32,097 bases of DNA from Lachnospiraceae bacterium. Lineage in GTDB: Bacteria > Bacillota > Clostridia > Lachnospirales > Lachnospiraceae. How positions within the stretch are numbered: position 1 is the first letter of the stretch; each line of letters starts with the position of its first letter. Under the pieces are notes generated by a model that did not search any database, was not told the DNA's origin, and saw only the letters and a program-made list of their open reading frames with translations. Shown here one piece after another: positions 3,490 to 32,097 of this stretch. A program made the translations under genes and the position numbers. Location: NCBI GenBank assembly GCA_024683645.1, contig JAIKYA010000201.1, forward strand, positions 1 to 32,097, in the 5' to 3' direction.

Positions 3490-3494
3490 GTTAG

Positions 3495-3555
3495 TGTCAA
3501 TGGCGACATAAAGCATAAAAGAACATATAAAGTGTAAATGAGGCAAGGGCGTCTC
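3495..3555 (+). promoter_or_regulatory. glmS leader: two A1/G4 hexaloop hairpins (probable ANTAR target)
   Basis: Hairpin P1 is UGUC(3495-3498)/GACA(3505-3508) around loop AAUGGC. Hairpin P2 is GAGGC(3540-3544)/GUCUC(3551-3555) around loop AAGGGC. Both loops have six bases with A at position 1 and G at position 4, the known signature of RNA bound by ANTAR-domain antiterminators. The 3' strand of P2 is also part of the 5' arm of the terminator at 3548-3574, so P2 and the terminator exclude each other. The 31-nt gap between P1 and P2 is longer than in the usual tandem motif, which is the main caveat. Confidence 0.65.
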
Positions 3556-3578
3556 GGATATGATCCGGGGCGCCTTTT
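3548..3578 (+). terminator. Attenuator terminator before glmS
   Basis: A 12-bp stem pairs 3548-3559 with 3563-3574 (GGCGUCUCGGAU / AUCCGGGGCGCC) around the loop AUG, followed by TTTT at 3575-3578. It lies downstream of the promoter and 22 nt before the glmS start, so it should end transcription unless P2 forms. Confidence 0.8.
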
Positions 3579-6777: not shown

Positions 6778-6793
6778 GAGGCAAAGACGTCTC
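6778..6793 (+). promoter_or_regulatory. asnB leader hexaloop hairpin P2 (probable ANTAR target)
   Basis: GAGGC at 6778-6782 pairs with GUCUC at 6789-6793 around the hexaloop AAAGAC (A1, G4). Stem and loop match P2 of the glmS and gltB leaders, and its 3' strand is shared with the following terminator. No P1 hairpin can be found between the predicted start site and P2. Confidence 0.6.
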
Positions 6794-6820
6794 GGAGATT
6801 TTTCTCCGGGATGTCTTTTT
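6786..6820 (+). terminator. Attenuator terminator before asnB
   Basis: A 12-bp stem pairs 6786-6797 (GACGUCUCGGAG) with 6804-6815 (CUCCGGGAUGUC) around AUUUUU, followed by five T at 6816-6820. It lies between the promoter and asnB, 168 nt upstream of the gene. Confidence 0.8.
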
Positions 6821-10768: not shown

Positions 10769-10843
10769 GGCCATCCCACAAAGATGTGGTTATATGAAGA
10801 GATTGGACTCTTTATAACCCGGAGGGGATGGCCTAATTTATTT
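10769..10843 (+). promoter_or_regulatory. amt leader: tandem hexaloop hairpins inside a long terminator
   Basis: P1 is CCAC(10776-10779)/GUGG(10786-10789) with loop AAAGAU. After 7 nt, P2 is AAGAG(10797-10801)/CUCUU(10808-10812) with loop AUUGGA. Both loops have A1 and G4, and the spacing suits the tandem motif bound by ANTAR dimers. P2 can extend through GGTTATA(10788-10794)/TATAACC(10813-10819), which conflicts with P1. The whole is enclosed by GGCCATCCC(10769-10777)/GGGATGGCC(10825-10833) followed by a T-rich run, a terminator that shares CC at 10776-10777 with P1. No convincing promoter lies between glnN and this element, so it may act on read-through transcripts. Confidence 0.55.
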
Positions 10844-10861
10844 AAAAGGAGGAAACAAATT

Positions 10862-12619
10862 ATGACGGAAGAAATTATGGAGGCATTAAGCGGTGAAGTC
10901 TTTGCGGTATGGTTCCTGATAGGAGCAGCGCTGGTCTTCTGGATGCAGGCAGGTTTTGCGATGGTGGAGGCGGGTTTCGCCAGAGCCAAGAACGCAGGTA
11001 ATATCCTTATGAAGAACCTTATGGATTTCTGTATAGGCTGCGTGGTATTCATACTGATAGGTTTCAGTCTGCTCCTCGGAGAAGACATGATGGGATTTAT
11101 AGGAAAGCCGGGTTTTGATATCTTTACGGCTTATGAGAGCTTTGACTGGTCCAACTTTGTATTCAACCTTGTATTCTGTGCAACAACGGCTACAATCGTA
11201 TCCGGTGCAATGGCTGAGAGGACCAAGTTCTTAAGTTACTGCGTGTATTCGGGAGTGATCTCCGCATTGATCTATCCCATTGAAGCACACTGGATCTGGG
11301 GTGGCGGCTGGCTTGCACAGATGGGATTTCATGATTTTGCAGGCTCATGTGCGATCCATATGGTAGGCGGTATCGCAGCCATCGTCGGAGCCAAGATGGT
11401 AGGTCCCCGTATCGGTAAGTTTGAAAAAGATGAAAAAGGCAAGATAGTAAAAGTAAATGCATTTCCCGGTCACAACATAGTAGTAGGTGCACTTGGTGTA
11501 TTCATCCTGTGGCTTGGCTGGTACGGTTTTAATGGTGCGGCATGTACATCTGTAGATCAGCTGGCATCAGTATTTGTAACAACTACGATAGCTCCTTCGA
11601 TCGCAACAGTAGTATGTATGATCTTTACCTGGATCAAATACGGCAAGCCCGATGTATCCATGTGTCTCAACGCATCGCTTGCAGGTCTGGTAGCTATTAC
11701 AGCTCCCTGTGATGTAACGGATGCTTTCGGTGCGATCATGATAGGTTTCGTAGCAGGTCTGCTGGTATGTTTCGGTGTATGGTTCCTTGATAACGTAGTA
11801 CATATCGATGATCCGGTAGGTGCTGTAGCAGTACATATGATGAACGGTATCTGGGGTACTATAGCAGTTGGTCTCTTTGCTACAGATACTGCTCCTGACA
11901 GTACATTAAAAGGTCTCTTCTATGGCGGCGGATTTGATCTGCTCGGAGTACAGCTTACAGGTTTTGCTGCAGTAGCAGCCTGGGCAGCTATCATGATGAT
12001 CATAGTATTCTCGATAATAAAGGCAATCTTCGGTCTGAGAGTAAGCGAGGAGGAAGAGATTGAAGGTCTGGATGTTAAGGAACACGGTCTGGCATCGGCT
12101 TATGCAGGATTCTCTATCGTAGATATCAGTGCTGCAGCAATGAGTGTAAACGAGAACACAAGTCTTGGCGAAGACGATTATGATAAGGCCAGTGAAGCAA
12201 AGAGGAATGCTTCCGTGCCTGTAGAGAACGTATCTTCGACAGTTGCCGGAACTTCACTTGAGACAGGAATGAATAAGGTGGTCATCATCACCAAGCTCTC
12301 AAGATATGACAAGATAAAGAGAGCACTGAATGCTCTTGGTGTAACCGGTATCACGGTGACACAGGTAACCGGCTGCGGTATAGAAAAAGGATCCAGTCAG
12401 ATGTACCGTGGAGTTGAAATGGATATGACACTGCTTCCGAAGATCAAACTGGAAGTCGTAGTCAGCAAGATACCGGTAGACAGCGTGATAGAGACAGCGA
12501 AGAAATGTCTCTACACCGGCAAGATCGGTGACGGCAAGATCTTTGTATATCCGGTAAGCAGGGTTGTTAAGATCCGTACAGGCGAAGAAAACTTTGCGGC
12601 ACTTCAGGATGTAGAATAA
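10862..12619 (+). CDS. amt: Ammonium transporter fused to a PII signalling domain
   Basis: Residues about 1-415 form an Amt/Mep ammonium channel of about eleven membrane helices, with the pore His residues in SCAIHMVGGIAA (about 165) and GAVAVHMMNGIWG (about 324). After a 55-residue linker, residues about 470-585 are a PII (GlnK) domain beginning MNKVVIITKLSRYDKI, with T-loop sequence KGSSQMYRGVEMDM, B-loop TGKIGDGKIFV and the C-terminal VVKIRTGEE. GlnK normally binds and blocks Amt as a separate protein; here the two are tethered. The Tyr51 that is uridylylated in enteric PII proteins is Met, so control is probably by ATP/ADP and 2-oxoglutarate alone. The start at 10862 follows AAAGGAGG; the upstream in-frame ATG at 10784 lies in the leader. 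Confidence 0.93.
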   Translation: MTEEIMEALSGEVFAVWFLIGAALVFWMQAGFAMVEAGFARAKNAGNILMKNLMDFCIGCVVFILIGFSLLLGEDMMGFIGKPGFDIFTAYESFDWSNFVFNLVFCATTATIVSGAMAERTKFLSYCVYSGVISALIYPIEAHWIWGGGWLAQMGFHDFAGSCAIHMVGGIAAIVGAKMVGPRIGKFEKDEKGKIVKVNAFPGHNIVVGALGVFILWLGWYGFNGAACTSVDQLASVFVTTTIAPSIATVVCMIFTWIKYGKPDVSMCLNASLAGLVAITAPCDVTDAFGAIMIGFVAGLLVCFGVWFLDNVVHIDDPVGAVAVHMMNGIWGTIAVGLFATDTAPDSTLKGLFYGGGFDLLGVQLTGFAAVAAWAAIMMIIVFSIIKAIFGLRVSEEEEIEGLDVKEHGLASAYAGFSIVDISAAAMSVNENTSLGEDDYDKASEAKRNASVPVENVSSTVAGTSLETGMNKVVIITKLSRYDKIKRALNALGVTGITVTQVTGCGIEKGSSQMYRGVEMDMTLLPKIKLEVVVSKIPVDSVIETAKKCLYTGKIGDGKIFVYPVSRVVKIRTGEENFAALQDVE

Positions 12620-12635
12620 GCTGATATGTATATTA

Positions 12636-12683
12636 CGGACAGATCGGGCCATAGTGGTCTGATCTGTCTGTTATATAAATATT
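12636..12683 (+). terminator. Terminator after amt
   Basis: A 16-bp stem (several G-U pairs) joins 12636-12651 with 12655-12670 around the loop UAG, followed by the T/A-rich run TTATATAAATATT. It lies 16 nt after the amt stop. Confidence 0.7.
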
Positions 12684-12691
12684 CTCCGGGC

Positions 12692-12746
12692 CTGCGTCCT
12701 CAGAATGACAACTTTTGCGTCATCCTGAACGCAGCGAAGGATCTTT
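12692..12746 (+). repeat. Dispersed-repeat-like inverted element before purF
   Basis: CTGCGT(12692-12697) and TCAG.ATGAC(12700-12709) are complementary to GTCAT.CTGA and ACGCAG at 12719-12734. The right half, ending GAAGGATCTTTC, resembles the 'GTCATyCTGAryGnAGyGAAGrATCT' type sequence that recurs in many bacterial genomes. This resemblance is from memory; the copy number here is unknown. Confidence 0.45.
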
Positions 12747-12763
12747 CAAAAAAGGAGCAACGG

Positions 12764-14152
12764 ATGAAAAATAATATACCGGACGATAAGCTGCATGAAG
12801 AATGCGGGGTATTCGGAATTTATGCCAATGAGGGCACAAAGGTCGCACATGATATATACTGCGGCCTTATCGCGTTACAGCACAGAGGACAGGAATCAGC
12901 GGGAATATCGGTTACGGATACTGCCGGACCCAAAGGAAACATAGTAACAAAGAAAGGAATGGGTCTTGTAAGTGAAGTCTTTACAGGTAAAAACATAGAG
13001 ACTCTTAACGGTAATGTGGGCGTAGGCCATGTCAGGTATTCGACTACAGGAGGCAGTGTTCCGGAAAATGCCCAGCCTATAGCCATGAATTACATTAAGG
13101 GTACACTCGCTCTCGTTCATAACGGAAATATCATAAATGCCGGGAAATTGAAGGAGGAGCAGGTTCTGCGCGGTCAGGCGCATTACACCTCATCCGATAC
13201 GGAAGTGCTGGCATATGAGATAGTGAGTGAACGTGTGCACAGTTCTTCTATAGAAGAAGCTGTCAAAAAAGCAGCAGCCGGACTCAAAGGCGGATATGCC
13301 TGCCTGATCATGAGCCCGAGAAAGCTTGTGGCAGTAAGGGATCCGTACGGATTAAAGCCTCTTGTTCTCGGGAAGAAAGCAGGAGCCTATATTATCGCAT
13401 CGGAAAGTGCGGCTGTAAATTCCGTCGGCGGTGAACTCTTAAGGGATATAGAACCGGGAGAGATAGTAACCATCGATAAAGACGGTATCAGGAGTGATAC
13501 TTCACTCTGCAATGGCAGGCAAGCTCACTGCGTATTTGAATACATATACTTTGCCAGAGTAGATTCGGTGATGGACGGGGTGTCTGTCCATGATGCGAGA
13601 ATAAGAGCCGGAAGAGCCCTGGCCAGAAGGCATCCCGTGGAAGCAGATATAGTAGCCGGTGTGCCTGATTCAGGACTGCCTGCAGCGGAAGGTTACGCAT
13701 ATGAATCAGCTATCCCTTTCGCTTTGGCTTTTCACAAGAACAGTTATGTGGGACGCAGTTTTATAAAGCCTACAGATGAAGAGAGAAGAAATGCGGTACA
13801 TATGAAACTGTCGGTACTGGTTCCTGTAGTAAAGGGAAAAAGAGTAGTGCTGATCGACGATTCAATTGTGCGTGGAACTACTATGCGTCAGATCATCATC
13901 ATGCTTCGAAATGCCGGAGCAACAGAAGTACATGTAAGGATCAGTTCACCGCCTTTCCTCTATCCCTGTTATTACGGAACAGACGTACCATCATCCGGCC
14001 AGCTGATAGCATCTGAACATTCCTCCGAGGAGGTATGTAAAAGCATCGGAGCAGATACTTTGGGGTATCTGGGTCTGGAAGATCTGAAGACCATGGCAGG
14101 TGATCTGCCTGTATGTTCGGCCTGCTTTGATAATATATACCCTGTGAAATGA
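12764..14152 (+). CDS. purF: Amidophosphoribosyltransferase
   Basis: PurF starts purine synthesis by making phosphoribosylamine from PRPP and glutamine. The 462-residue product has a 13-residue propeptide ending before Cys14 in EECGVFGIY, the class II glutaminase nucleophile; LIALQHRGQESAG, GVGHVRYSTTG and VHNGNIINA follow. The phosphoribosyltransferase half has the PRPP site VVLIDDSIVRGTT. Four Cys in HCVFEYIYFARVDS, YPCYYG and the final CSACFDN match the Fe-S ligands of the Bacillus-type enzyme, so it should carry an oxygen-sensitive [4Fe-4S] cluster. I start at 12764 (AAAGGAGCAACGG upstream) rather than at 12626, which lies in the amt terminator. It stands apart from other purine genes here, among glutamine users instead. 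Confidence 0.95.
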   Translation: MKNNIPDDKLHEECGVFGIYANEGTKVAHDIYCGLIALQHRGQESAGISVTDTAGPKGNIVTKKGMGLVSEVFTGKNIETLNGNVGVGHVRYSTTGGSVPENAQPIAMNYIKGTLALVHNGNIINAGKLKEEQVLRGQAHYTSSDTEVLAYEIVSERVHSSSIEEAVKKAAAGLKGGYACLIMSPRKLVAVRDPYGLKPLVLGKKAGAYIIASESAAVNSVGGELLRDIEPGEIVTIDKDGIRSDTSLCNGRQAHCVFEYIYFARVDSVMDGVSVHDARIRAGRALARRHPVEADIVAGVPDSGLPAAEGYAYESAIPFALAFHKNSYVGRSFIKPTDEERRNAVHMKLSVLVPVVKGKRVVLIDDSIVRGTTMRQIIIMLRNAGATEVHVRISSPPFLYPCYYGTDVPSSGQLIASEHSSEEVCKSIGADTLGYLGLEDLKTMAGDLPVCSACFDNIYPVK

Positions 14153-14696: not shown

Positions 14697-15168
14697 GAAC
14701 AAGCTGAGTCTCTGGGAAAAGTACCTTACAAAAGAAATAGGCATAGAGTTCAAGGCCTGTCTGTATTTCTTTGCGGTACTGTTTTTCTACTGTGTGTACA
14801 GGATAGTCTGCGGGATATACGATGCATCGATACTGCACCTGACCGAGATGATCTTTTCCTGTTATTTCATGGGATATATACAGGTGTATGCATTCAATAA
14901 TTTTGATGAAAGCGATACACTGAAAGGACGCGAATATGCGGGTTTAGTGATATGCACGCTGCTGTACGTCGCCCTGTCATTTTTCCTTAAGTGGTTTGAC
15001 GGGAAGCTTTTGATATCGCTTCTGTTTGCGGTATACATACTGATAACCTATATCTGTGTGATACTTATCTACCGTTCAAAAAGGCATATAGATGACAAAA
15101 TACTGAACGATGAATTACGCATATTCCAGTCGGAACACAACAAAAAAGTGCATGATACGGATGAATAA
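14689..15168 (+). CDS. DUF3021-like membrane protein
   Basis: The 159-residue product has four hydrophobic segments at about residues 22-43, 50-66, 84-100 and 106-126 and a charged C-terminal tail. Together with its position behind a LytTR gene this matches the DUF3021 family, although sequence similarity to the protein at 1568 is low by eye. It uses a GTG start at 14689, preceded by GAAGGGAGG; the nearby ATG at 14685 is in the regulator's frame. The gene is followed directly by a strong terminator, so it ends its transcription unit. It probably tethers or inhibits the LytTR partner. Confidence 0.65.
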   Translation: MDKNKLSLWEKYLTKEIGIEFKACLYFFAVLFFYCVYRIVCGIYDASILHLTEMIFSCYFMGYIQVYAFNNFDESDTLKGREYAGLVICTLLYVALSFFLKWFDGKLLISLLFAVYILITYICVILIYRSKRHIDDKILNDELRIFQSEHNKKVHDTDE

Positions 15169-18179: not shown

Positions 18180-18184
18180 AAGTG

Positions 18185-18248
18185 TGTCAAAGGTGACATG
18201 CAGGATCTGATCAGAAAATAATCATATTATCAAAGGCAAAGGCGTCTT
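18185..18248 (+). promoter_or_regulatory. gltB leader: two A1/G4 hexaloop hairpins (probable ANTAR target)
   Basis: P1 is UGUC(18185-18188)/GACA(18195-18198) with loop AAAGGU. P2 is AAGGC(18233-18237)/GUCUU(18244-18248) with loop AAAGGC. Compared with glmS and asnB the outer pair of P2 is A-U instead of G-C, a compensatory change that keeps the stem. The 3' strand of P2 is part of the terminator arm. The P1-P2 gap is 34 nt. As DNA, TGTCA-N4-TGACA is also a palindrome, so a protein operator is an alternative reading of P1. Confidence 0.65.
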
Positions 18249-18274
18249 GGGTAAGTACCCGGGGCGCCTCTTTT
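18241..18274 (+). terminator. Attenuator terminator before gltB
   Basis: A 12-bp stem joins 18241-18252 (GGCGUCUUGGGU) with 18257-18268 (ACCCGGGGCGCC) around AAGU, followed by TCTTTT. It ends 33 nt before the gltB start. Confidence 0.82.
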
Positions 18275-18307: not shown

Positions 18308-21300
18308 ATGAAAGAAGTATCAGACAACAGATTTGAACAGATAAGAAAAGAAGGTCTTTATGACCCTTCCTTTGAGCATGACAACTGCGGTATAGGTGCT
18401 GTTATCGATGTGGAAGGACGTGCGAGCCACAAGCTGGTAAGCGATGCCCTGTATATCGTTGAAAACCTTGAACACAGGGCAGGCAAGGATGCGGAAGGAA
18501 AAACCGGTGACGGGGTTGGTATCCTTACGCAGATCCCGCATAAGTATTATGTGAAAGTGATGAAGAAGGAAGGTGTCAGCCTGCCGGGAATAAGACAGTA
18601 CGGTGTCGGCATGTTCTTCTTTCCGACAAACGATCTGGATATGAGACAGGCCAGATCGATGTTTGAGATCATTGTGCGTAAGGCGGGGCTTAAGATACTC
18701 GGATGGAGAAAGGTCGCATCTGATCCCGATGTACTGGGAAGCAGGGCCCGTGAGTGCATGCCTGAGATATACCAGGTATTTATAGAAAGACCTTCAACGC
18801 TAAAAGAGGATATAGATTTTGACCGTATGCTCTACATCATACGGAGAGAATTCGAGCAGAGCAGCGCAAATACTTATGTGCCATCGCTTTCATGCAGGAC
18901 AGTAGTATATAAAGGTATGTTCCTGGTAGGGCAGCTGAGACAGTTCTTCACTGATCTGGAGGATCCCGATTATGAATCAGCCATCGCCATGGTGCATTCG
19001 CGATTTTCAACAAATACGACTCCGAGCTGGAACAGGGCGCATCCCAACCGTTTTATAGTACATAACGGTGAGATCAATACGATAAAAGGAAATGCGGACA
19101 AGATGCTTGCCAGGGAAGAGACCATGCATACGGCAGCATTTTCCGAAGAAGACATGACCAAGGTATTGCCGGTCATATCACAGAGCGGATCCGACTCCGC
19201 AATGCTTGATAATACACTGGAATTTCTGGTGATGAGCGGTATGGAACTTCCTCTTGCCGCAACGATAATGATCCCCGAACCCTGGGCACATAATGAGACT
19301 CTTTCACAGGAAGAAAGGGATTTTTACCAGTATTATGCAACGATGATGGAACCCTGGGATGGTCCCGCATCCATACTCTTCTCGGACGGTGATGTAATGG
19401 GCGCGATCCTTGACCGCAACGGTCTGCGACCGTCAAGGTATTATGTGATGGATGACGGAAGACTGATACTTTCTTCGGAAGTAGGTGTGCTGGATCTTCC
19501 GGAAGAGCATGTGGTAAAGAAAGAGAGACTGCATCCCGGCAAGCTCCTATTAGTGGATACCAAACAGAAAAAGATAATCAGTGATGAAGAGATAAAAGAA
19601 AGGTATGCTCTCGGAAAGCCTTACGGGGAGTGGCTGGACAGCAAGCTGACGGAGCTTGCGGACCTGAAAGTACCGAACAAGAAAGTACAGGTATATACAT
19701 CGGAAGAAAGATCAAAACTGCAGAAAGCTTTCGGTTATACCTGGGAGAATTATCATGACTCGATCCTGAGCATGGCACTGAACGGAACCGAAGCGATAGG
19801 ATCTATGGGTATAGATACGCCGATCGCTGCGCTTTCAAAAGAGTACCAGCCGCTGTTCTATTATTTCAAACAGCTTTTCGCACAGGTGACAAATCCTCCT
19901 ATCGATGCACAGAGAGAGGAGATAGTAACATCACGTACGGTATATGTCGGAAAGAACGGAAATCTTCTCGAAGAAAAACCGGAAAACTGCCAGGTACTCA
20001 AGATCAATAATCCGATACTGACGGATCTGGATCTCCTAAAGATAGAAAACATGAAGAAGGACGGATTCAAGATTGCAAAGATATCCATCCTTTATTATAA
20101 GAGTACACCGATGAAGAGGGTGCTGCACCATCTGTTTGTGGAAGTTGATAAAGCATACAGAGAGGGTGCGAACATACTTATACTTTCGGACCGCGGTGTA
20201 GATGAAAATCATGTGGCGATACCTTCTCTTCTTGCAGTGGCGGCCGTACATAAACATCTGGTTGATACCAGAAAATGTACGGCCATGTCACTGATCGTGG
20301 AATCGGGCGAACCCAGGGAAGTGCATCATTTCGCAACACTTCTCGGATACGGTGCATCAGCCGTAAACCCTTATCTGGCGCATGCCACGATAGCCCAGCT
20401 GCTTGAAGAGGAGATACTTGATAAAGATTATTATGCAGCAGTTGAAGATTATGACAATGCGATACTTTTCGGTATAGTCAAGATCGCGTCCAAGATGGGG
20501 ATCTCAACGATACAGTCCTATCAGGGAAGCAAGATATTTGAAGCAATAGGCATTTCACAGGATGTGATAAATGATTACTTCACCGGAACGGTAAGCCGTG
20601 TAGGTGGTATCACGCTCGAGGATATAGGAAAGGCTGCGGATAAACAGCACAGCCGGGCTTTCGACCCGCTGGGACTTGACGTTGATCTGGAGCTGACTGC
20701 GATGGGACGTCATAAGGAGCGCAGCCGGGGCGAGAAACACAGATACAATCCCCAGACCATACATATGCTGCAGCTGTCCACGAGGGAAGGCAATTACGAA
20801 AAGTTTAAAGAGTACACGAAGATGATAGATGGCGAAACATCAGGATACTTAAGAAGTCTTATCGATTTCAGATATCCTGAAAAGGCTATAGATATCAAAG
20901 AGGTCGAAAGCGAAGAGTCCATAGTTAAAAGATTCAAAACAGGAGCCATGTCCTACGGTTCAATTTCGGAAGAAGCACATACAACGCTTGCTATCGCCAT
21001 GAACAGGCTGAAGGGTAAGAGCAACAGCGGTGAAGGCGGAGAGAGTGATGAGAGGATAATGTCTGCGGGAACAAAGGACGATAGGAGTTCCGCGATAAAG
21101 CAGGTGGCCAGCGGACGTTTCGGTGTGACCAGCAGATACCTTGTCAGTGCAAAAGAGATACAGATAAAAATGGCACAGGGTGCAAAACCGGGTGAAGGCG
21201 GACATCTGCCCGGAAAGAAGGTATATCCCTGGATAGCGAAGACCAGACATTCGACACCGGGTGTGAGTCTGATATCACCGCCACCCCATCATGATATTTA

Positions 21301-22873
21301 TTCAATCGAGGATCTGGCACAGCTCATATATGATCTGAAATGTGCCAATAAAGATGCGAGGATATCTGTGAAGCTCGTATCAGAAGCAGGCGTAGGTACA
21401 GTGGCAGCAGGTGTTGCAAAAGCCGGTGCAGCGGTGGTACTGATATCGGGTTATGACGGAGGTACGGGAGCAGCTCCTCTTTCATCAATACACAATGCAG
21501 GTCTTCCCTGGGAGCTTGGACTTGCAGAGACACACCAGACTCTGATCGCGAATGGTCTGAGAAACAGGGTAGTGATAGAAACAGACGGCAAGATGATGAC
21601 GGGACGTGATGTTGCGATAGCAGCAATGCTCGGTGCGGAAGAATTCGGTTTTGCAACGGCACCGCTGATCACACTCGGCTGCGTGATGATGAGGCAGTGC
21701 CAGTCCGATACCTGTCCGATGGGCGTTGCAACCCAGAATCCCGAACTCAGAAAACGTTTTGCGGGAAAACCCGAGTATGTTGAGAATTTCATGCTGTTCA
21801 TAGCCAGACAGCTGCGCGAGATAATGGCAGCACTCGGAATAAGGACGGTAGAAGAGCTTGTGGGCAGGAGTGATCTGCTGAAGATAAAGGAAGATATCGG
21901 AGATGATGGAAAGAGAATGGATCTTTCAAAGATACTCCTTCATATGGAAAGCGGCAGTATTGATCATCAGGGCAAAAATCTATATGACTTTAAGCTGAAA
22001 GAAACAAAGGACGAAGCTGTTCTGTTAAAGTCAAAGGACATAAAGCAGGCGATAGAGAGCGGGGAGAAGACAGAAGTAAGTGTCGGACTGAAGAGTGTTG
22101 ACAGGACTTTCGGAACTCTTTTGGGAGCGGAGATTACAAGGAAGAAACCGGAGGGTCTTGAGGAAGATACCATTACGATAAACTGCAGCGGATCCGGCGG
22201 TCAGAGCTTTGGTGCTTTTATCCCGAAGGGATTGACGCTGCGTCTTAAGGGAGACAGCAACGATTATTTCGGAAAAGGTTTATCCGGAGGAAAGCTGGTG
22301 GTATCTGCACCGGCAGAGGCGGAATATGATCCCGGAGAGAACATCATAATAGGAAACGTTGCATTGTACGGTGCTACCTCGGGTAAAGCATTTATATCCG
22401 GTATGGCAGGGGAAAGATTCGGCATACGTAATTCCGGTGCAACAGCAGTTGTTGAAGGCGTAGGTGAACACGGCTGCGAGTACATGACAGGAGGAACGGT
22501 AGTGATACTCGGTCCTGTCGGAAAGAACTTTGCTGCAGGTATGAGCGGTGGTACGGCATATGTGCTGGATGAAAAGAGTACCCTGTATAAAAATCTGAAT
22601 AAACAGATGGTCAGCATGGAGGCAGTGGAAAATAAAGAAGATATAGATGAACTCAGACGGATCCTCACGGAGCATGTTGAAGAGACCGGTTCGAAAAAAG
22701 GAAAAGAGGTACTTGCGGAACTTGATGCTTATATACCTCATTTTAAGAAGATCATACCGGGAGACTATAAGGAGATACTGAGACTGATAGCAGCTGAAAC
22801 AGAGAAGGGGGCGGATCCCGAAACCGCAAAGATAGAAGCCTTCAGAAGTTTTGTGACGGGAGGTGCGCACTGA
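18308..22873 (+). CDS. gltB: Glutamate synthase, large subunit
   Basis: GltB moves the glutamine amide to 2-oxoglutarate to give two glutamates, with electrons from GltD. The 1521-residue length is usual. A 26-residue propeptide precedes the nucleophile Cys27 in HDNCGIGAVIDV; the class II glutaminase runs to about 420 (RFSTNTTPSWNRAHP, HNGEINTIKGN). The central domain follows, then the FMN-binding synthase barrel (about 830-1200: SNSGEGGES, GAKPGEGGHLPG, ISGYDGGTGAAPLSS). The [3Fe-4S] cysteines are in CVMMRQCQSDTC near residue 1125. The C-terminal beta-helix (GXXXG-rich, about 1260-1480) is complete. The ATG at 18308 follows AAAAAGGAG. It ends in a TGATG overlap with gltD and heads a seven-gene operon. 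Confidence 0.97.
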   Translation: MKEVSDNRFEQIRKEGLYDPSFEHDNCGIGAVIDVEGRASHKLVSDALYIVENLEHRAGKDAEGKTGDGVGILTQIPHKYYVKVMKKEGVSLPGIRQYGVGMFFFPTNDLDMRQARSMFEIIVRKAGLKILGWRKVASDPDVLGSRARECMPEIYQVFIERPSTLKEDIDFDRMLYIIRREFEQSSANTYVPSLSCRTVVYKGMFLVGQLRQFFTDLEDPDYESAIAMVHSRFSTNTTPSWNRAHPNRFIVHNGEINTIKGNADKMLAREETMHTAAFSEEDMTKVLPVISQSGSDSAMLDNTLEFLVMSGMELPLAATIMIPEPWAHNETLSQEERDFYQYYATMMEPWDGPASILFSDGDVMGAILDRNGLRPSRYYVMDDGRLILSSEVGVLDLPEEHVVKKERLHPGKLLLVDTKQKKIISDEEIKERYALGKPYGEWLDSKLTELADLKVPNKKVQVYTSEERSKLQKAFGYTWENYHDSILSMALNGTEAIGSMGIDTPIAALSKEYQPLFYYFKQLFAQVTNPPIDAQREEIVTSRTVYVGKNGNLLEEKPENCQVLKINNPILTDLDLLKIENMKKDGFKIAKISILYYKSTPMKRVLHHLFVEVDKAYREGANILILSDRGVDENHVAIPSLLAVAAVHKHLVDTRKCTAMSLIVESGEPREVHHFATLLGYGASAVNPYLAHATIAQLLEEEILDKDYYAAVEDYDNAILFGIVKIASKMGISTIQSYQGSKIFEAIGISQDVINDYFTGTVSRVGGITLEDIGKAADKQHSRAFDPLGLDVDLELTAMGRHKERSRGEKHRYNPQTIHMLQLSTREGNYEKFKEYTKMIDGETSGYLRSLIDFRYPEKAIDIKEVESEESIVKRFKTGAMSYGSISEEAHTTLAIAMNRLKGKSNSGEGGESDERIMSAGTKDDRSSAIKQVASGRFGVTSRYLVSAKEIQIKMAQGAKPGEGGHLPGKKVYPWIAKTRHSTPGVSLISPPPHHDIYSIEDLAQLIYDLKCANKDARISVKLVSEAGVGTVAAGVAKAGAAVVLISGYDGGTGAAPLSSIHNAGLPWELGLAETHQTLIANGLRNRVVIETDGKMMTGRDVAIAAMLGAEEFGFATAPLITLGCVMMRQCQSDTCPMGVATQNPELRKRFAGKPEYVENFMLFIARQLREIMAALGIRTVEELVGRSDLLKIKEDIGDDGKRMDLSKILLHMESGSIDHQGKNLYDFKLKETKDEAVLLKSKDIKQAIESGEKTEVSVGLKSVDRTFGTLLGAEITRKKPEGLEEDTITINCSGSGGQSFGAFIPKGLTLRLKGDSNDYFGKGLSGGKLVVSAPAEAEYDPGENIIIGNVALYGATSGKAFISGMAGERFGIRNSGATAVVEGVGEHGCEYMTGGTVVILGPVGKNFAAGMSGGTAYVLDEKSTLYKNLNKQMVSMEAVENKEDIDELRRILTEHVEETGSKKGKEVLAELDAYIPHFKKIIPGDYKEILRLIAAETEKGADPETAKIEAFRSFVTGGAH

Positions 22874-24357
22874 TGGGAAAAACAACAGGTTTTCTGGAGT
22901 ATAAAAGAGCTGAAGGAGAAGTCAGGAGTGAAGAGGAAAGAGTAAAGGATTTCCTTGAATTCCATAAACGTCTTCCGATAGAAGAACAGAAAAAGCAGGC
23001 TGCCAGATGTATGGACTGCGGTATACCTTTCTGTCAGGCAGGAAAGATAATCGCCGGCATGGCATCGGGTTGTCCCCTGAACAATCTGGTACCGGAAGTG
23101 AATGATCTGGTATACAGGGGAAGGATGGCTGAAGCATACAGGAGACTGTCTGTCACACACAGTTTTCCCGAGTTCACCAGCCGTGTATGTCCGGCATTGT
23201 GCGAAGCAGCATGTACCTGCGGACTGCATGATGAGCCGGTATCGACAAAAGAAAACGAAAAGTCCGTGATCGAATATGCTTATGAACACGGCCTGGTAAA
23301 AGAAAAAACACCTGCCGTAAGAACCGGAAAAAAGGTGGCCGTGATCGGCAGCGGACCTTCAGGGCTGGCAGCTGCACAGCTTTTAAACCGCAGAGGACAT
23401 GAAGTAACGGTATATGAGCGCAGGGACCGTGTGGGCGGACTGCTGCGATACGGCATACCCAATATGAAGCTGGATAAGAAGCTGATAGACAGAAGAGTGA
23501 AGCTTATGGAGGAAGCAGGTATCCGCTTTGTAGTGAATGCGGATGTGGGAAAGGATATTTCCGCCGAAGAGCTTAAGAAAGAATACGACGGCATAGTGCT
23601 TGCCTGCGGAGCATCAAATCCCAGAGATATAAATGCACCGGGCAGAGATGCAAAAGGTATAAGGTTTGCGGTTGATTTTCTTTCGGAAGTAACAAAGAGA
23701 CTGCTTGACAGTGATCTTAAAGACATACCTTCAGAGCTTGCGAAAGATAAGGATGTGATAATAATAGGCGGTGGGGACACAGGTAATGACTGTGCCGGAA
23801 CCTGTATACGTCTGGGGGCAAAAAGTGTGACCCAGCTTGAGATGATGCCGAAACCTTCCGAAGAAAGACTGCCTTCCAATCCCTGGCCCGAATGGCCCAG
23901 AATACTGAAGACAGATTACGGTCAGGAAGAAGCAATATGGAAATATGGAAAAGATCCGAGAGTATATCAGACTACAGTAAAGGAATTTGTTAAGGATAAA
24001 AAGGGCATGCTGAAAGAGATCGTGACCGTGCAGCTCCATCCCGAAAAGGATGAAAAAACCGGAAGGATGAACATGGTACCGACGGAGGGAAGTGAGAAGA
24101 CTCTCCCTGCACAGCTCGTGCTGATAGCGGCAGGTTTCCTCGGAAGCGAAAAATATGTAACGGATGCTTTCGGAGTAGAGACCGATACAAGATCAAATGT
24201 AAAAACAGAAGCAGGAAAATATTCATCATCACAGGCAAAGGTATTTACGGCAGGTGATATGCACAGAGGACAGTCACTGGTGGTATGGGCGATAGCTGAA
24301 GGCAGAGCTGCTGCAAAAGAAGTTGATGCGGCGCTGATGGGATACACCAATCTGTAA
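22873..24357 (+). CDS. gltD: Glutamate synthase, small subunit
   Basis: GltD feeds NAD(P)H electrons through FAD and two [4Fe-4S] clusters to GltB. The 494-residue product has N-terminal cysteines in CMDCGIPFCQ, SGCPLNN and CPALCEAACTCG (about 45-120), an FAD-binding fold at VAVIGSGPSGLAAAQLL (about 156), GGLLRYGIP, and an NAD(P)H-binding fold at DVIIIGGGDTGNDCAGTC (about 295). The C-terminal VFTAGDMHRGQSLVVWAI closes the FAD site. Its start overlaps the gltB stop, so the two subunits are coupled. It is also a general flavoprotein family, but context settles the role. Confidence 0.97.
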   Translation: MGKTTGFLEYKRAEGEVRSEEERVKDFLEFHKRLPIEEQKKQAARCMDCGIPFCQAGKIIAGMASGCPLNNLVPEVNDLVYRGRMAEAYRRLSVTHSFPEFTSRVCPALCEAACTCGLHDEPVSTKENEKSVIEYAYEHGLVKEKTPAVRTGKKVAVIGSGPSGLAAAQLLNRRGHEVTVYERRDRVGGLLRYGIPNMKLDKKLIDRRVKLMEEAGIRFVVNADVGKDISAEELKKEYDGIVLACGASNPRDINAPGRDAKGIRFAVDFLSEVTKRLLDSDLKDIPSELAKDKDVIIIGGGDTGNDCAGTCIRLGAKSVTQLEMMPKPSEERLPSNPWPEWPRILKTDYGQEEAIWKYGKDPRVYQTTVKEFVKDKKGMLKEIVTVQLHPEKDEKTGRMNMVPTEGSEKTLPAQLVLIAAGFLGSEKYVTDAFGVETDTRSNVKTEAGKYSSSQAKVFTAGDMHRGQSLVVWAIAEGRAAAKEVDAALMGYTNL

Positions 24358-24370
24358 TGAATGGCAGTAA

Positions 24371-26008
<1,638 letters not shown>

Positions 26009-26020
26009 AAGGAGAAGAAG

Positions 26021-27100
26021 ATGAAGGCTGAAAGAAGGCTTATCCTTGAAGACGGCACAGCTTATACCGGAGCCGCATTCGGAGGCAGCAGGACGGCTGT
26101 CAGTGAGATAGTGTTCAACACGTCAATGGCAGGATATCAGGAGATCGTATCGGATCCGTCATATACAGATCAGGCGATAGTGATGTCGTATCCGCTGATA
26201 GGAAATTACGGAGTAGCAGATGAGGATTTTGAGAGCAGGATCATATCCCCGTCTGCTTTTATAGTGAGGGATATTAATGATAATCCTTCAAATTTCAGGT
26301 GGGCAAAGACACTGCCCGAACTGCTGGAAGAAAGCAATGTGCCGGGTTTAAGCGGAGTGGATACGAGGAAGCTGGTGAGGAGTATAAGGGATCACGGTTC
26401 GAGGAGATGCGTGATCACAGACGAAGAAATGTCTGCAGAAGAAGGAATAAAACTTATCGCAGATACGCCTGTTCCCCACGATGCAGTGAAGAGGAGCAGC
26501 TGCAGAAAAAGATGGTACAGCCGCACATCAAATCCTCTTTATAACATAGTGGCGATAGACTGCGGGATGAAGAGTAATATCGTGCGTATGCTGAATAAGA
26601 ACAGATGCAATGTGACTGTTGTTCCGTACAATACAGGTTATGAAGATATACTTGCGCTCAAACCTGACGGAGTCTTTGTATCAAACGGCCCCGGGGATCC
26701 GGAAGATGTAACCGAGGTAATAGACACTCTGAAAATGCTGAGAGGTAAAACGGTATTGTTCGGCATATGTCTCGGACATCAGCTGATAGCACTGTCATAC
26801 GGAGCAAAAACATATAAACTGAAATTCGGTCACAGGGGAGGAAACCATCCCGTACGGGATCTCAGAAACGGAAAGATAGAGATAACAAGCCAGAATCACA
26901 GCTATGCGGTAGATGAAAAGTCTCTGGAAGGAACAGGTCTTGCCGTATCCCATGTGAACATACTTGACGGTACCGTGGAAGGACTCTGCAGCGAGGAGGA
27001 TGGCGTAATGAGCGTGCAGTACCATCCGGAAAGTGCACCCGGCCCGCAGGACAGTGCATATCTGTTTTCGCAGTTTACAGCGTTGATGAAAAGAGGTTGA
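26021..27100 (+). CDS. carA: Carbamoyl-phosphate synthase, small (glutaminase) subunit
   Basis: CarA releases ammonia from glutamine and channels it to CarB. The 359-residue product has the N-terminal CarA domain ([41 protein letters not shown]) and a class I glutaminase with [10 protein letters not shown], the nucleophile Cys in [13 protein letters not shown] (about 250), SQNHSYAV and the catalytic His in [12 protein letters not shown]. It lies 12 nt after pyrG with a strong AAAAGGAGAAG site and ends a few bases before carB. The enzyme serves both pyrimidine and arginine synthesis. Confidence 0.97.
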
Positions 27101-27105
27101 GAAAA

Positions 27106-30100
27106 ATGCCGAAAAGAACTGACATAAAAAAAGTACTTGTGATAGGCTCGGGACCTATAGTCATAGGTCAGGCAGCGGAATTTGATTATGCGGGAACACA
27201 GGCCTGTCTTGCACTGAAAGAAGAAGGGTATGAAGTAATACTTGCCAACTCCAATCCTGCGACTATCATGACCGATCATGCCATAGCGGACAAGGTTTAT
27301 ATGGAGCCTCTTACGCTGGAATACATGGCAAGGATATGCAGATACGAAAGACCCGATGCGATAGTTCCCGGCATAGGAGGACAGACGGGACTGAACCTTT
27401 CATTGCAGCTTTATGATAAAGGTGTACTGGAAGAATGTGAGATAGAGCTTCTGGGAACTGATGCGGAAAGCATCAGAAAAGCCGAGGACAGGGAACAGTT
27501 CAAAGAGCTCTGTGAAAGCCTGGGTGAACCGGTTGTTCCTTCAGCTATAGCGGAGAGTATAGAAGAAGGTCTTAAAGCAGCGGAGATGATAGGTTATCCC
27601 GTGATACTGAGACCTGCTTTCACACTGGGAGGAACGGGAGGCGGTTTTGCGGGAGATCCCGAAGAGATGAGGGATATGATGAAAAATGCCCTCGCACTTT
27701 CTCCCGCACATCAGGTGCTGGTGGAAAAGAGCATAAAGGGATACAAAGAGATCGAATATGAAGTAATGCGGGATGCAAATGACACTGCTATTACGGTATG
27801 TAACATGGAAAACCTCGATCCCGTCGGAATACATACGGGCGATTCCATAGTGGTGGCACCCAGTCAGACTCTTACAAACAAAGAATATCATATGCTCAGG
27901 GATTCTGCCTTAAGGATCATAAGAGCCCTTGGCATAAAGGGCGGCTGTAATGTGCAGTTTGCACTGGACCCCGAATCCTTCAGCTATTACGTGATAGAAG
28001 TAAATCCGCGTGTATCAAGATCCTCTGCGCTGGCTTCAAAGGCAAGCGGATATCCGATAGCCAGGGTTTCAGCAAAGATAGCAGTCGGCATGGATCTGGA
28101 TGAGATAATGCTGGCCAATACTCCTGCATGTTTTGAACCGACACTTGACTACGTTGTGACAAAGATGCCGAGGTTTCCTTTTGATAAATTTACCCTTGCT
28201 TCAAACAGACTGTCTACACAGATGAAGGCAACGGGAGAGACCATGAGCGTAGGGCGGACAATGGAAGAGAGTCTGCTGAAAGCCATACGTTCACTTGAGG
28301 ATGGAAAGAATCACATTCATCTTGCGAAATTTGATGTGAAGAATCTGTCCGATAAACCGGACCCGGAGAACAGAAAGGAAGCGATAGAAAAGCTGCTTGA
28401 TTATATCGTGGAGGGAACCGATGACAGGATCTATGCCATATCCGAACTGCTGTGGCTGGGAGTTGATCCGCACACGATATATTCAAAAACGAAGATAGAC
28501 ATGTTCTTCCTTGATAAGATCAAAAATATCGTTGATCATGAGATACTGCTGGAGAAGGAGAAAGATGATATAGGGAAAGAGATATTATACAGTGCCAAGA
28601 GGATGGGCTTTTCCGATTCTTATATAGCAGAGCTTACGGGGAAAACGGAAGATGAGATCAGTACACTGAGAAAGCAGTATGATATCCGTCCCGTATATAA
28701 GATGATCGATACCTGTGCAAGTGAGTTTGACAGCTATGTTCCTTACTTCTATTCAAGCTATGAGGAAGAGAATGAATCGATAGTATCGGAAAACAAAAAG
28801 ATCATTGTTCTGGGTTCAGGCCCGATAAGGATAGGACAGGGTGTCGAATTTGATTATTCAACGGTGCATGCGGTAAAGACCATCCGGGAGATGGGCTATG
28901 AAGCCATAGTGATAAACAACAATCCGGAAACGGTATCAACGGATTATACCACCGCAGACAAACTGTATTTTGAACCCTTGACAGTAGAAGATATAATGAA
29001 CGTCATCGATCTGGAGAAACCCGTCGGTGTGATCACTTCACTGGGCGGACAGACAGCTGTCAATCTGGCAGAACCTCTGGCGGCAAGGGGAGTAAAGCTC
29101 ATCGGTACCGGTACCGAGGCGATATTCGCGGCAGAGGACAGGGATGCTTTTGAAAACCTGATAAATAAGCTTGAGATACCGCATCCGGAAGGAATAGCCG
29201 TTACAAATATAGAAGACGGGCTGGCTGCAGCAGCACGCATAGGCTATCCCGTTCTGGTAAGACCGTCATATGTGCTTGGCGGCCGGGCTATGGAGATAGT
29301 CGCGAATGAACAGATGCTTTCATCTTATCTTAAAAATGCCGTGGAGGTTGATAAGGACAGACCTGTTCTGGTAGATAAGTATATAGTAGGAAAAGAAGTG
29401 GAAGTGGATGCAGTCTGTGACGGCAGGGATGTATTTCTGCCGGGCATCATGGAACTGGTGGAGAGGACCGGAGTACATTCGGGCGACAGCATAAGTGTAT
29501 ATCCTCCGTATTCCATTTCGGATCATGTACGCCAGCTCATATGGAAATATACCTATAAACTCGGTGTGGGGATAGGGATAGTCGGTCTGTTCAACATACA
29601 GTTTATAGTAGACAAGGCGGATAATGTATATATAATAGAAGTAAATCCGCGTGCATCAAGAAGTGTTCCTTTTTTATCAAAGTCAACAGGTGTTTCGCTG
29701 GTAGATATCGCAACAAGGGTAATGCTTGGAGAAAGCCTGAAAAAACAGGGACTTGCGGAAAAGATCTTTCCGGAAAAAGAATCCTGGTACGTGAAAGCAC
29801 CTGCGTTTTCTTTTGAAAAGCTGAACGGTATGGATGCATATCTTTCACCCGAGATGAAATCGACCGGTGAGGCGATAGGTTATGACCGGAGTCTGAAACG
29901 TGCTCTGTATAAGGCTTTGCAGGCGTCCGGCATAAAGATGAAGGAATACGGCACGGTGATGGTAACTCTTGCCGATGAAGACAAGGAAGAAGCACTGCCT
30001 CTGATCAGACGGTTTTATGAGCTCGGATTTAATATAGAAGCGACCGTGGGAACAGGGAAGTTTCTGAAGGAACACGGTGTAAGGACGCGTATACGCGGAA

Positions 30101-30324
30101 AGATAAGTGAAGGCAGCGATGAGATACTGCGCTCCATAAGGGCAGGTTATGTGAGTTATATCATAAATACCAGAGCGATCCTTTCCGGTGTGCATTACAA
30201 TGACGGTATAGAGATAAGACGCTGTGCGATAATGAACGGAGTGACCATGTTCACTTCGCTTGATACGGTAAAGATACTGCTGGATGTGCTGGAAGATATT
30301 TCACCGAGGATTTCTACTATATAA
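27106..30324 (+). CDS. carB: Carbamoyl-phosphate synthase, large subunit
   Basis: CarB makes carbamoyl phosphate from bicarbonate, ammonia and two ATP. The 1072-residue product is the usual tandem of two similar halves. The first has [20 protein letters not shown] and the ATP-grasp ([14 protein letters not shown]), the second has [20 protein letters not shown] (about 568) and its own ATP-grasp ending [12 protein letters not shown]. An oligomerisation domain lies between and an MGS-like allosteric domain is at the C-terminus (about 935-1070). I take the ATG at 27106 ([16 protein letters not shown], the standard beginning) over a TTG at 27097 overlapping carA. It continues the gltB operon. Confidence 0.97.
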
Positions 30325-30347: not shown

Positions 30348-31523
30348 ATGAGATACACTGAAGAAGAAGTAATGAAATATATCGAAGAAGAGGATGCGAA
30401 GTTTATAAGACTTGCATTCCGTGATGCATTCGGAATACAGAAGAATATCTCCGTGATGCCGGGTGAGGTAAAGAAAGCTTTTGATGACGGAGCACCGATC
30501 AGTGCAAGGGATATAGCGGGTTTTCAGGACTGTCCTTATTCATCACTGTATCTTAAGCCCGATCCGGATACGCTTTCCGTTCTTCCCTGGAGACCTGACA
30601 GCGGAAAAGTGCTCAGGATGTTCTGCGATGTATATACACCGGACGGAGAGGAATACATATCGGACACAAGAGCAATACTGAAAAAAGCCATGGAAAAAGC
30701 AGATGAAGCGGGAATAGAATTCAGGTTCAGCAATGAAACGGAGTTTTATCTGTTTGTTAATGACGAAGAAGGAAATCCGACCAGGAAGCCTTATGATAAC
30801 GCGGGTTATCTGGATATAGCACCTTTGGATAAGTGTGAGAATGTCAGAAGAGAGATAACGCTCACGATAGAGAAGATGGGACTTAAACCGGAGAGATCAC
30901 ATCACGAAAGAGGCCCCGGACAGAATGAGATAGATTTTCATTATGCAAAACCCTTAAAGGCTGCCGACCAGATGACTACTTTTAAGATGGCTGTAAGTAC
31001 CATAGCAAACCGCAACGGCCTGACTGCGGATTTTTCACCCATGCCCATTCCCGATAAACCGGGAAACGGTTACCATATAAATCTTTATGCTGTCGACCGT
31101 GAGGGTAATGATGTGGTCAGATATGCGGCAGCAGGGATAATAGAAAAGATAAGGGATATAACAGTATTTTTAAACCCTACGGAGCAGTCTTATGCACGCT
31201 TCGGAAACAATACGGCTCCCGACCGTGTCAACTGGTCAAGCCGTGGAGATTCCGAACTGATGTATATTGAAACTTTTAAAGACAGGACAAGGGCAGAGCT
31301 TCGGAGTCCCGATGCGGTATGTAATCCTTATCTTGTATATGCGCTGCTGATATATGCGGGATTGTCGGGTATTGAAAGAAAGCTTTCACTGCCCGAAGAG
31401 ATGGATGAGAAGGGAGCGCTGCTTCCCGGTTCCAGAAAAGAAGCAGCGAAGCTGGCATATGAGAGTGACTTTGTCAAGGAGTACATACCTGAGGAAGTAA
31501 TCAGATCCTATACCGGATATTGA
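30348..31523 (+). CDS. Short, divergent glutamine synthetase-like protein, possibly non-catalytic
   Basis: This 391-residue protein follows the type I glutamine synthetase plan but is about 50 residues shorter at the C-terminus. Metal ligands appear kept: Glu130 and Glu132 in NETEF, His186/Glu187 and the later Glu in HHERGPGQNEIDF, His243 in NGYHINL, and Glu in RAELRSPD. In contrast, the flap motif, usually VPGYEAP, reads FGNNTAP, so the active-site Glu is Thr289. The NRSPLIRIP motif that contacts ATP and substrate reads GDSELMYIE (300-308). The DGSSIEGF stretch reads ARDIAGF. It may still bind glutamine or glutamate without making it. It lies 23 nt after carB and 13 nt before the ANTAR gene, with a strong AAAGGAGG site. 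An amine-specific gamma-glutamyl ligase is an alternative. Confidence 0.85.
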   Translation: MRYTEEEVMKYIEEEDAKFIRLAFRDAFGIQKNISVMPGEVKKAFDDGAPISARDIAGFQDCPYSSLYLKPDPDTLSVLPWRPDSGKVLRMFCDVYTPDGEEYISDTRAILKKAMEKADEAGIEFRFSNETEFYLFVNDEEGNPTRKPYDNAGYLDIAPLDKCENVRREITLTIEKMGLKPERSHHERGPGQNEIDFHYAKPLKAADQMTTFKMAVSTIANRNGLTADFSPMPIPDKPGNGYHINLYAVDREGNDVVRYAAAGIIEKIRDITVFLNPTEQSYARFGNNTAPDRVNWSSRGDSELMYIETFKDRTRAELRSPDAVCNPYLVYALLIYAGLSGIERKLSLPEEMDEKGALLPGSRKEAAKLAYESDFVKEYIPEEVIRSYTGY

Positions 31524-31536
31524 CGGAGGTAAGTGA

Positions 31537-32097
31537 ATGCCGAAATTAGAAGAATATTCGCATTCGGCGTTGATAATATCAGCCTCCGACCGTTTTGACA
31601 GCCTGGCAAAAAAATCCCTGAAGGGATTTATCACTATTGACATAAAGAAGAGCGGAGCGCTGGGAAGACGCGCGATACTTGAGAGGGACTATGATCTTGT
31701 GATCATAAATGCCCCTTTATCGGATGAAAACGGAATAGAGCTGTCTCTGGATATCGCAGAGAAGAATAACGGCGTTGTGCTGTTGGTGGTCCCTCAGGAT
31801 AATTATGAGGATATCCTGGACAGGGTTACCGACCAGTGTGTCCTCGTGATCACAAAACCTGTGCCTGAGGGCAGACTTGACAAGGCGATACGTTTCCAGA
31901 CAGCAGTCAGGAATAAGCAGTATATGCTTGAAAAGAAGGCAGCCTCCATCCAGGAAAAACTGGATGAACTGAGGATTGTGAGCAAGGCAAAACTTATTCT
32001 TGTTGAAAAAAAGCATATGTCCGAAGACGATGCCCACAGATATATCGGAAAACTGGCAATGAACAACGGAGTTTCCAGAAAATACGCCGCGGAGCGT
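31537..32097 (+). CDS. ANTAR-domain transcription antiterminator with pseudo-receiver (NitR/NasT-like), 3' end cut
   Basis: The frame opens at an ATG 7 nt after CGGAGG and runs off the right edge after 187 codons. Residues about 8-118 have receiver topology (SALIISASDRF, DLVIINAPLSDENG, VVLLVVPQD, LVITKPVPEG), but the acidic pair is absent and the acceptor position is Asn in IINAPL, so control by phosphorylation is unlikely; the Lys of TKPVP remains. A coiled coil (about 122-145) leads to an ANTAR RNA-binding domain with 'LDELRIVSKAKLILVEKKHM', SEDDAHRYIGKLAMNNG and SRKYAAE. ANTAR proteins bind paired hexaloop hairpins and prevent termination; a glnA-linked clostridial member is NitR. As last gene of the gltB operon it probably regulates itself and the glmS, asnB and amt leaders. 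Confidence 0.9.
   Translation, partial: MPKLEEYSHSALIISASDRFDSLAKKSLKGFITIDIKKSGALGRRAILERDYDLVIINAPLSDENGIELSLDIAEKNNGVVLLVVPQDNYEDILDRVTDQCVLVITKPVPEGRLDKAIRFQTAVRNKQYMLEKKAASIQEKLDELRIVSKAKLILVEKKHMSEDDAHRYIGKLAMNNGVSRKYAAER

Follow-up and report, generated by a model that had tools for sequence, protein, structure and literature searches.

The stretch of DNA analysed here (the window) is contig JAIKYA010000201.1 of a Lachnospiraceae bacterium, an entire contig (C182) of 32,097 bases in a 3.1-Mb draft assembly. Our subject is the pair of forward-strand genes at its end, together with three RNA leaders in the same window. The first gene is an open reading frame (ORF) at 30348..31523 for a 391-residue pseudo glutamine synthetase (GS) of the GSI-alpha type, assigned from Pfam, alignment, residue counts and a structure model. 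After a gap of 13 nt it is followed by an ORF (31537..32097; Pfam, alignment) for an ANTAR antiterminator with a degenerate receiver, which is cut after 187 residues because the window is the whole contig. An earlier account drawn from the bare letters (the sequence-only reading) had noted this arrangement and its spacing, both of which hold, and had proposed that the GS-like protein holds or releases its neighbour according to the level of glutamine. The analysis agrees with the idea of a sensing pair and points to a different ligand.

A synthetase fold with catalytic residues lost

The 391-residue protein has the GSI fold with both of its domains (Pfam Gln-synt_C, 7.6e-66; Gln-synt_N, 3.4e-17), and at 257 bits it lies far below the 429-bit cut-off of the NCBIfam GlnA model. 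Its predicted structure (mean predicted local distance difference test score, pLDDT, 85.9) matches the GS of Methanosarcina mazei with a template-modelling (TM) score of 0.94 over the query; the best relatives in the PDB are plain GS, and amine ligases score far lower. Residues are numbered as in Escherichia coli GlnA without the initial methionine. In the alignment the metal ligands E129, E131, E212, E220, H269 and E357 are present, as had been claimed. The D50 loop is altered from FDGSS to ISARD (D50S), the flap reads FGNNTAP for VPGYEAP, so that the flap glutamate is lost (E327T), and GDSELMYIE stands in place of the NRSPLIRIP-type motif (R339D, R344Y); the last two changes had been seen in the sequence-only reading and were confirmed. 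In GS, R339 and R344 contact the ATP phosphates.

These losses are shared by the relatives of the window protein. The short-form set comprises 81 proteins, the window protein and the best 80 of the 146 relatives found, and the fetched relatives come mostly from rumen and gut Lachnospiraceae. D50, E327 and R344 are retained in none of the 81 and R339 in three, and E131, E212, E220, H269, R321 and R359 are retained in all; E357 (80/81), E129 (79/81) and H210 (78/81) are nearly as constant.

The protein had also been described as missing about 50 C-terminal residues, and this stands in part. It is indeed 52 residues shorter than a relative of 443 residues (L163), but the deficit at the C-terminal end is about 26-27 residues, the alignment stopping at residue 419-420 of the 446 of M. 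mazei GS; the remainder is made up of internal gaps of 12 and 13 residues plus one residue of the flap. What is absent is the C-terminal tail that makes the contact between rings. The C-terminal helices of M. mazei GS mediate ring-ring contact (PMC11957540; this and the other papers are cited for the parts of their text that were available), and therefore the oligomer expected here would be a hexamer or smaller. The residue losses are there to be seen, and from them we judge the protein to be very probably a pseudoenzyme, as had been supposed.

The adjoining ANTAR protein as partner

The ANTAR domain of the second protein scores 46.5 bits against a Pfam cut-off of 27.3, and in the alignment its receiver has S, A and N at the positions D12, D13 and D57, in agreement with the claim that it cannot be phosphorylated. 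Across the 69 ANTAR proteins paired with short forms and 127 others, the first position of the acidic pocket is never acidic. The orthologue at locus L009 was modelled (mean pLDDT 91.7); EutV is the closest structure to this model, and the matches also include AmiR from the AmiC-AmiR complex.

A survey of co-occurrence had been suggested, and its outcome favours the pairing strongly. An ANTAR ORF lies downstream in 79 of the 80 fetched short-form loci, 77 times within the set spacing and twice with its start inside the GS gene; the remaining locus (L051) meets a contig end. We also surveyed 150 genomes of the family, taking as window-type any GS that matches the window protein at an E-value of 1e-40 or better. 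Among the 134 ANTAR sites over the Pfam cut-off in these genomes, 128 have a same-strand GS no more than 2 kb upstream. Both genes were found in 128 genomes, neither in 18, ANTAR only in three and GS only in one (Fisher p 3e-19), and in the sole GS-only genome the GS lies at a contig end. A mirror-tree comparison over 37 loci gave a correlation of 0.73 between GS and ANTAR distances (0.58 as a partial correlation given carB), a weak result because it is confounded by linkage. The window pair thus combines an adjacent, co-retained partner with a degenerate receiver, as expected of a two-protein, ligand-switched ANTAR system, and it is very likely that the pseudo-GS is the functional partner of the adjoining ANTAR protein.

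The linkage is also seen across the class: of 30 fetched ANTAR loci (73 genomes had a match), 17 adjoin a GS, one of these 17 being from the same family. Coverage of the core residues was incomplete, D50 being mostly outside it; within it, 12 of the 17 GS are unchanged and the other five differ at E327. An active GlnA beside an ANTAR gene would on this evidence be the older arrangement.

A second GS-ANTAR pair was found in the assembly on contig C154 (60146-62085; L008), its GS carrying H269Y and R339C. This contig is possibly a contaminant: contamination of the assembly stands at 5.75%, and the composition of C154 gave no verdict either way.

ANTAR-type hairpins in the glmS, asnB and gltB leaders

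Three leaders on the forward strand of the window, ahead of glmS, of asnB-glnN-amtB/PII-purF and of gltBD-pyrG-carAB-pseudo-GS-ANTAR, contain a hairpin of the form GAGGC or AAGGC, a hexaloop with A1 and G4, and GTCTC or GTCTT. Each was located by motif, covariance model and scan, and each overlaps an intrinsic terminator located by a terminator scan: in the glmS leader the hairpin (P2) is at 3540..3555 and the terminator at 3545..3577, in the asnB leader they are at 6778..6793 and 6783..6818, and in the gltB leader at 18233..18248 (P2) and 18240..18269. The hairpin sits 17 to 59 nt past the start of a -10-like box, and its 3' part falls within the 5' arm of the strong terminator, so that hairpin and terminator are mutually exclusive. 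By inspection, an additional candidate hairpin (P1) with an A1/G4 hexaloop can be placed 30 nt before P2 in the glmS leader (3494..3509) and 33 nt before P2 in the gltB leader (18184..18199); the latter, taken alone, folds with a four-base loop.

The exact 15-base motif has three sites in the 3.1-Mb assembly, all of them in the window, and a scan for an A1/G4 hexaloop hairpin with an overlapping terminator returned these same three on the forward strand and nothing on the reverse strand; 60 shuffled sequences (first-order Markov) likewise gave nothing. An Rfam search of the window gave nothing at the gathering score. When we scanned for paired hairpins no more than 12 nt apart, none of the three leaders came up, and the single match was at 10776.

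The exact motif is narrow, occurring in 22 of the 150 genomes. Twenty-four motif loci were viewed in context: a script placed a nitrogen or glutamine gene after 15 of them, about five looked coding-like by eye, and the remainder look like leaders without an assigned gene. A covariance model was built from 22 sequences chosen by eye, among them three without an assigned gene (L112, L113, L121). In these 22 aligned leaders, 45 cells of the terminator stem were changed on both sides, against a shuffle mean of 17; the motif columns are invariant by construction because the sites were found with the motif, and the pair counts of the small hairpin therefore say little where those of the terminator are more informative. 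At an E-value of 1e-3 or better the model matched in 64 of the 131 genomes that have ANTAR and in none of the 19 that lack it; when the 16 genomes that had supplied the model were taken away, the figures were 48/115 and 0/19 (p 1.4e-4). Half of 30 loci fetched with the model had supplied it and half had not, and 13 of the 15 in the latter group precede glnN (6), asnB (4), an amtB-like gene (2) or dapL (1); as for the other two, L291 is an apparent chance match and the glnN label of L298 is void, having been read at a wrong position. Some matches have a different stem round the same loop, such as AAAGC-loop-GCTTT. In a list deduplicated by eye, 38 of 101 matches at 1e-3 or better lie near a GS match.

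ANTAR targets ahead of nitrogen genes have been described in many bacteria (Ramesh et al. 2012; PMC3369931), and the minimal target was later defined as a single hexaloop (PMC8934654). We consider ANTAR control of the glmS, asnB and gltB leaders to be very likely.

The genes behind these leaders were named chiefly by NCBIfam. glmS, for glutamine-fructose-6-phosphate transaminase, occupies 3601..5466; its mechanical ORF begins at 3538, within the leader, and the likely true start, set after the leader, is the ATG at 3601. The asnB leader is followed by asnB (asparagine synthase B, 6988..8613), by glnN for a type III GS (GSIII) that is likely catalytic (8639..10738; Pfam), by a single ORF in which an ammonium transporter is fused to a PII domain (10784..12619; Pfam, NCBIfam) and by purF (amidophosphoribosyltransferase, 12626..14152). 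The GSIII gene had been pointed out in the sequence-only reading and is there. Behind the gltB leader lie gltB and gltD for the glutamate synthase subunits (18308..24357), then pyrG, carA and carB (24407..30324; ORFs, NCBIfam), of which carA (26021-27100) was named by its sequence and place alone, with no NCBIfam match at the threshold used. The assembly as a whole has GSIII genes and, on contig C169, an intact GlnA.

In the asnB leader, a 29-nt inverted repeat (6809-6869; 90% complementary) overlaps the 3' arm of the terminator and could add a second layer of control.

Repeated erosion of ANTAR-linked GS

In the family survey, 12 core residues were scored in 132 of the 134 GS matches, the two of the window assembly being read apart. 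None had been lost in 53 proteins, one in 37, two in 13 (one of them a fragment), three in 13, four in eight, five in five, six in one and seven in two. Among the 126 GS with a script-found ANTAR ORF, at least one core residue is lost in 76 and at least two in 40; if non-conservative losses alone are counted, these numbers are 55 and 31. For comparison, 14 of 16 unlinked GS, from the same bacterial family and another GS subfamily, have no loss, and two distant ones have lost D50 and E327. Non-conservative losses differ between linked (55/126) and unlinked GS with a Fisher p of 8e-4, in a test that left out two of the 16, L267 and L268 (27-28% identical to L097). On a FastTree tree in which 47 of 145 inner branches are weak, the state of at least two losses changes 17 times, and 12 of these changes are forced by well-supported branches; L253, a contig-end fragment scored as eroded, may add one state change. 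Genomes with any core loss in the linked type have at least two GS matches, and the single-match genome has an intact GS.

No ANTAR ORF was found by script beside six of the 132 GS: L135 and L143 are eroded, L161, L166 and L207 are intact, and L253 is the fragment; by Pfam, L135 does have an ANTAR site. L135 and L143 are both from genome G075. Judged from these residue counts, ANTAR-linked GS is eroded repeatedly in the family.

L127-L135 (about 403 residues) have lost just the flap glutamate among the 12 core residues (E327K), and L127 and L130 also end without the C-terminal tail. They may represent a halfway stage.

The candidate ligand

Glutamine, the ligand of the sequence-only reading, was considered first. 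In feedback-inhibited Gram-positive GS, glutamine touches the flap residue Glu304 and is locked in by Arg62 of the D50 loop (PMC9249791). The flap glutamate (Glu304 is E. coli E327) is found in none of the 81 short forms, and neither is an arginine at the Arg62 position; the GS of Methanothermococcus thermolithotrophicus, which is without that arginine, resists inhibition by glutamine (PMC10799026). Because both residues are lost, we lowered the standing of glutamine, which is not supported as the ligand.

Another site is intact. M. mazei GS binds 2-oxoglutarate between subunits through F24, R26, R87, R172', R173' and S189' (PMC11957540), and the matching residues do so in M. thermolithotrophicus GS (PMC10799026). 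In the alignment the M. mazei site maps to F19, R21, R82, R167, R168 and S184 of the window protein, and all six are present in 81/81 short forms; across the family, 36 of the 37 GS with a single core loss and 39 of the 42 with more have the complete site. Conservation of the six columns is 92-100% (80th-91st percentile of all columns) in 36 eroded GS that are not of the short clade, and none of 20,000 random six-column sets reached their mean conservation, although the columns were picked after their invariance had been seen in the short clade; the lower conservation of the catalytic columns is in part built in, as loss of catalytic residues was what these GS had been selected for. The site is absent from the unlinked GS (0/16), which are a weak control because they belong to another GS subfamily.

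Several points weigh against 2-oxoglutarate. Four or five of the six site residues are common to Bacillus-type GS, which are without the loop arginine and have a clashing glutamate (PMC10799026). For this reason the odds were lowered, and the argument rests on R82 and a small residue at position 35, which occur together in 81/81 short forms and, in the family, in 52/53 GS with no core loss, 36/37 with one and 39/42 with two or more. The whole site is likewise complete in 50 of 53 catalytically intact GS of the linked type, and of two intact window-type GS without ANTAR, one (L166) has it complete. It was thus inherited from active GS and not newly made, and may have been kept for the subunit interface. 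Since the site was noticed through invariant columns, the tests of it are after the fact, and the invariance of the substrate-site residues R321 and R359 leaves some likelihood to glutamate, or to glutamine bound in a different way. Weighing these residues together, we put 2-oxoglutarate as the ligand of the pseudo-GS at about even odds.

Proposed mechanism and alternatives

2-oxoglutarate is the cell's signal of nitrogen shortage. We propose, at a probability of roughly 0.55, that the dead GS is the sensing partner of the ANTAR antiterminator and that its most likely ligand is 2-oxoglutarate. In this scheme, 2-oxoglutarate would bind between neighbouring pseudo-GS subunits. As long as it is missing, the pseudo-GS would hold the ANTAR protein inactive; when nitrogen runs short and 2-oxoglutarate rises, a change in the ring would set the ANTAR protein free. 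Once free, the ANTAR protein would capture the small AxxGxx-loop hairpin that the glmS, asnB and gltB transcripts form close to their 5' ends. The overlapping terminator would then be blocked, and the resulting read-through would switch on the sensor pair's own expression together with ammonium uptake, GSIII, glutamate synthase and the enzymes that consume glutamine. Inactivity, 2-oxoglutarate binding, contact with the ANTAR protein and polarity are all what we infer here. Regulation of the kind known from AmiC/AmiR and NasS/NasT, invoked in the sequence-only reading, is supported by analogy, and by that analogy direct holding and release of the ANTAR protein by the pseudo-GS is probable. NasS keeps NasT bound until nitrate or nitrite releases it (PMC3795266), and the same polarity would fit here if 2-oxoglutarate is the ligand, because it rises in nitrogen shortage. 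That the whole chain (2-oxoglutarate, dead GS ring, pseudo-receiver ANTAR protein, single-hexaloop antiterminator, nitrogen regulon) operates as one switch is a tentative proposal, a little short of even odds; we hold just as tentatively that, throughout this family of gut Firmicutes, GS beside ANTAR has repeatedly quit catalysis to become a dedicated 2-oxoglutarate receptor in a nitrogen switch acting on RNA.

Some observations sit uneasily with this scheme. Several genes of the regulated operons are for enzymes that consume glutamine (glmS, purF, pyrG, carAB), and these are unexpected in a pure nitrogen-shortage regulon. Of the 69 ANTAR proteins paired with short forms, 10 retain the phosphorylation aspartate, the rest having mostly N or G, and the second pocket position is acidic in 6 of the 127 others. 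At an E-value of 0.01 the leader model matched in 80 of 131 genomes with ANTAR and also in 2 of 19 without. Finally, the eroded L143 (E129A, E220K, E327G) has no adjoining ANTAR gene, and an ANTAR site stands alone on another contig.

Three other explanations have to be set against this evidence. If the former substrate pocket of the pseudo-GS served to sense glutamine (or glutamate), and the pseudo-GS captured or freed the ANTAR protein as feedback-inhibited GS (FBI-GS) does with GlnR and TnrA, this would account for the invariance of the carboxylate and metal residues E131, E212, E220, H269, R321 and R359 and would follow an established mode, the binding of GlnR by glutamine-bound GS (PMC9249791); the flap glutamate and Arg62 that are gone from every short form are both part of canonical feedback inhibition, the archaeal enzyme without the arginine is not inhibited by glutamine (PMC10799026), and we regard this explanation as unlikely. 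The pseudo-GS may instead be a ligand-free chaperone or co-antiterminator, with nitrogen sensed elsewhere, for instance by the AmtB-PII fusion. Linkage and co-loss do show a need for the protein and not ligand binding, and the regulon itself includes a gene with a PII domain; against it, R82 and the small residue 35 stay in those 39 of 42 GS that have at least two catalytic losses, and the idea seems to us improbable.

The GS fold and the retained metal site would also suit a protein that is still an enzyme, whether a slow GS or a ligase for another substrate. This we consider very improbable, given that the short forms keep R339 in three cases and R344, D50 and the flap glutamate in none, that the nearest known structures are of plain GS and not of amine ligases, and that the assembly has its GSIII genes and an intact GlnA.

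Should sensing of 2-oxoglutarate by a dead GS prove true, a central metabolic enzyme has on several occasions turned wholly into a sensor, one family preserves stages between the intact and the strongly eroded form, and common gut and rumen bacteria would gain a defined nitrogen circuit in which 2-oxoglutarate acts through a dead GS on transcription termination. The circuit makes clear predictions at the level of individual residues and of the three short leaders, and is directly testable.

Other features of the window

The gene for a LytTR regulator (14247-14696) and the one after it, for a small membrane protein with weak similarity to DUF3021, together span 14247-15168. By eye, the gene pair at 1087-2035 resembles this LytTR pair, and a long inverted repeat lies just upstream of it (1025-1066).

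Comparison with known systems

In the titles and opening lines of abstracts covered by our literature search, which took in few subscription papers, we found no description of a pseudo-GS as a sensor. The window pair shares with NasS-NasT and AmiC-AmiR the adjacency of two genes, one for a ligand-binding protein and one for an ANTAR antiterminator, and, very probably, antitermination of nitrogen genes (PMC3795266). Unlike these systems, the sensor here is a dead GS, its predicted ligand is 2-oxoglutarate and the complex is a putative one. In Clostridium thermocellum, Clo1313_2030 is reportedly a GS-linked NitR-type ANTAR regulator. NitR of C. acetobutylicum is reported to be an antiterminator of ammonia assimilation (cited in PMC4676874). 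Both the Clostridium NitR-type regulators and the window protein are thus ANTAR antiterminators tied to ammonia-assimilation genes, with the difference that here the GS is dead; the linkage of GS and ANTAR seen here is also found in other families of the class.

With respect to the RNA, the leaders resemble the EutV-type target in their A1/G4 hexaloop and in a short stem overlapping the 5' arm of the terminator. Unlike the eut case, many leaders have one hexaloop hairpin soon after a -10-like box, and where a second candidate exists, in two of the three window leaders (glmS and gltB), it lies 30-33 nt upstream, in contrast to the eut linkers of 5-12 nt (PMC3369931).

As for the sensor, the FBI-GS of Bacillus and Paenibacillus is likewise a GSI-alpha protein that serves as a nitrogen sensor for a regulator, GlnR or TnrA. 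That enzyme is active, senses glutamine via Glu304 and Arg62 and has a DNA-binding partner, whereas here these residues are lost and the partner is of an RNA-binding type. With the archaeal GS of M. mazei and M. thermolithotrophicus the window protein shares the same six 2-oxoglutarate-binding residues; there 2-oxoglutarate switches on catalysis or assembly, and here the catalytic residues and the C-terminal tail are absent.

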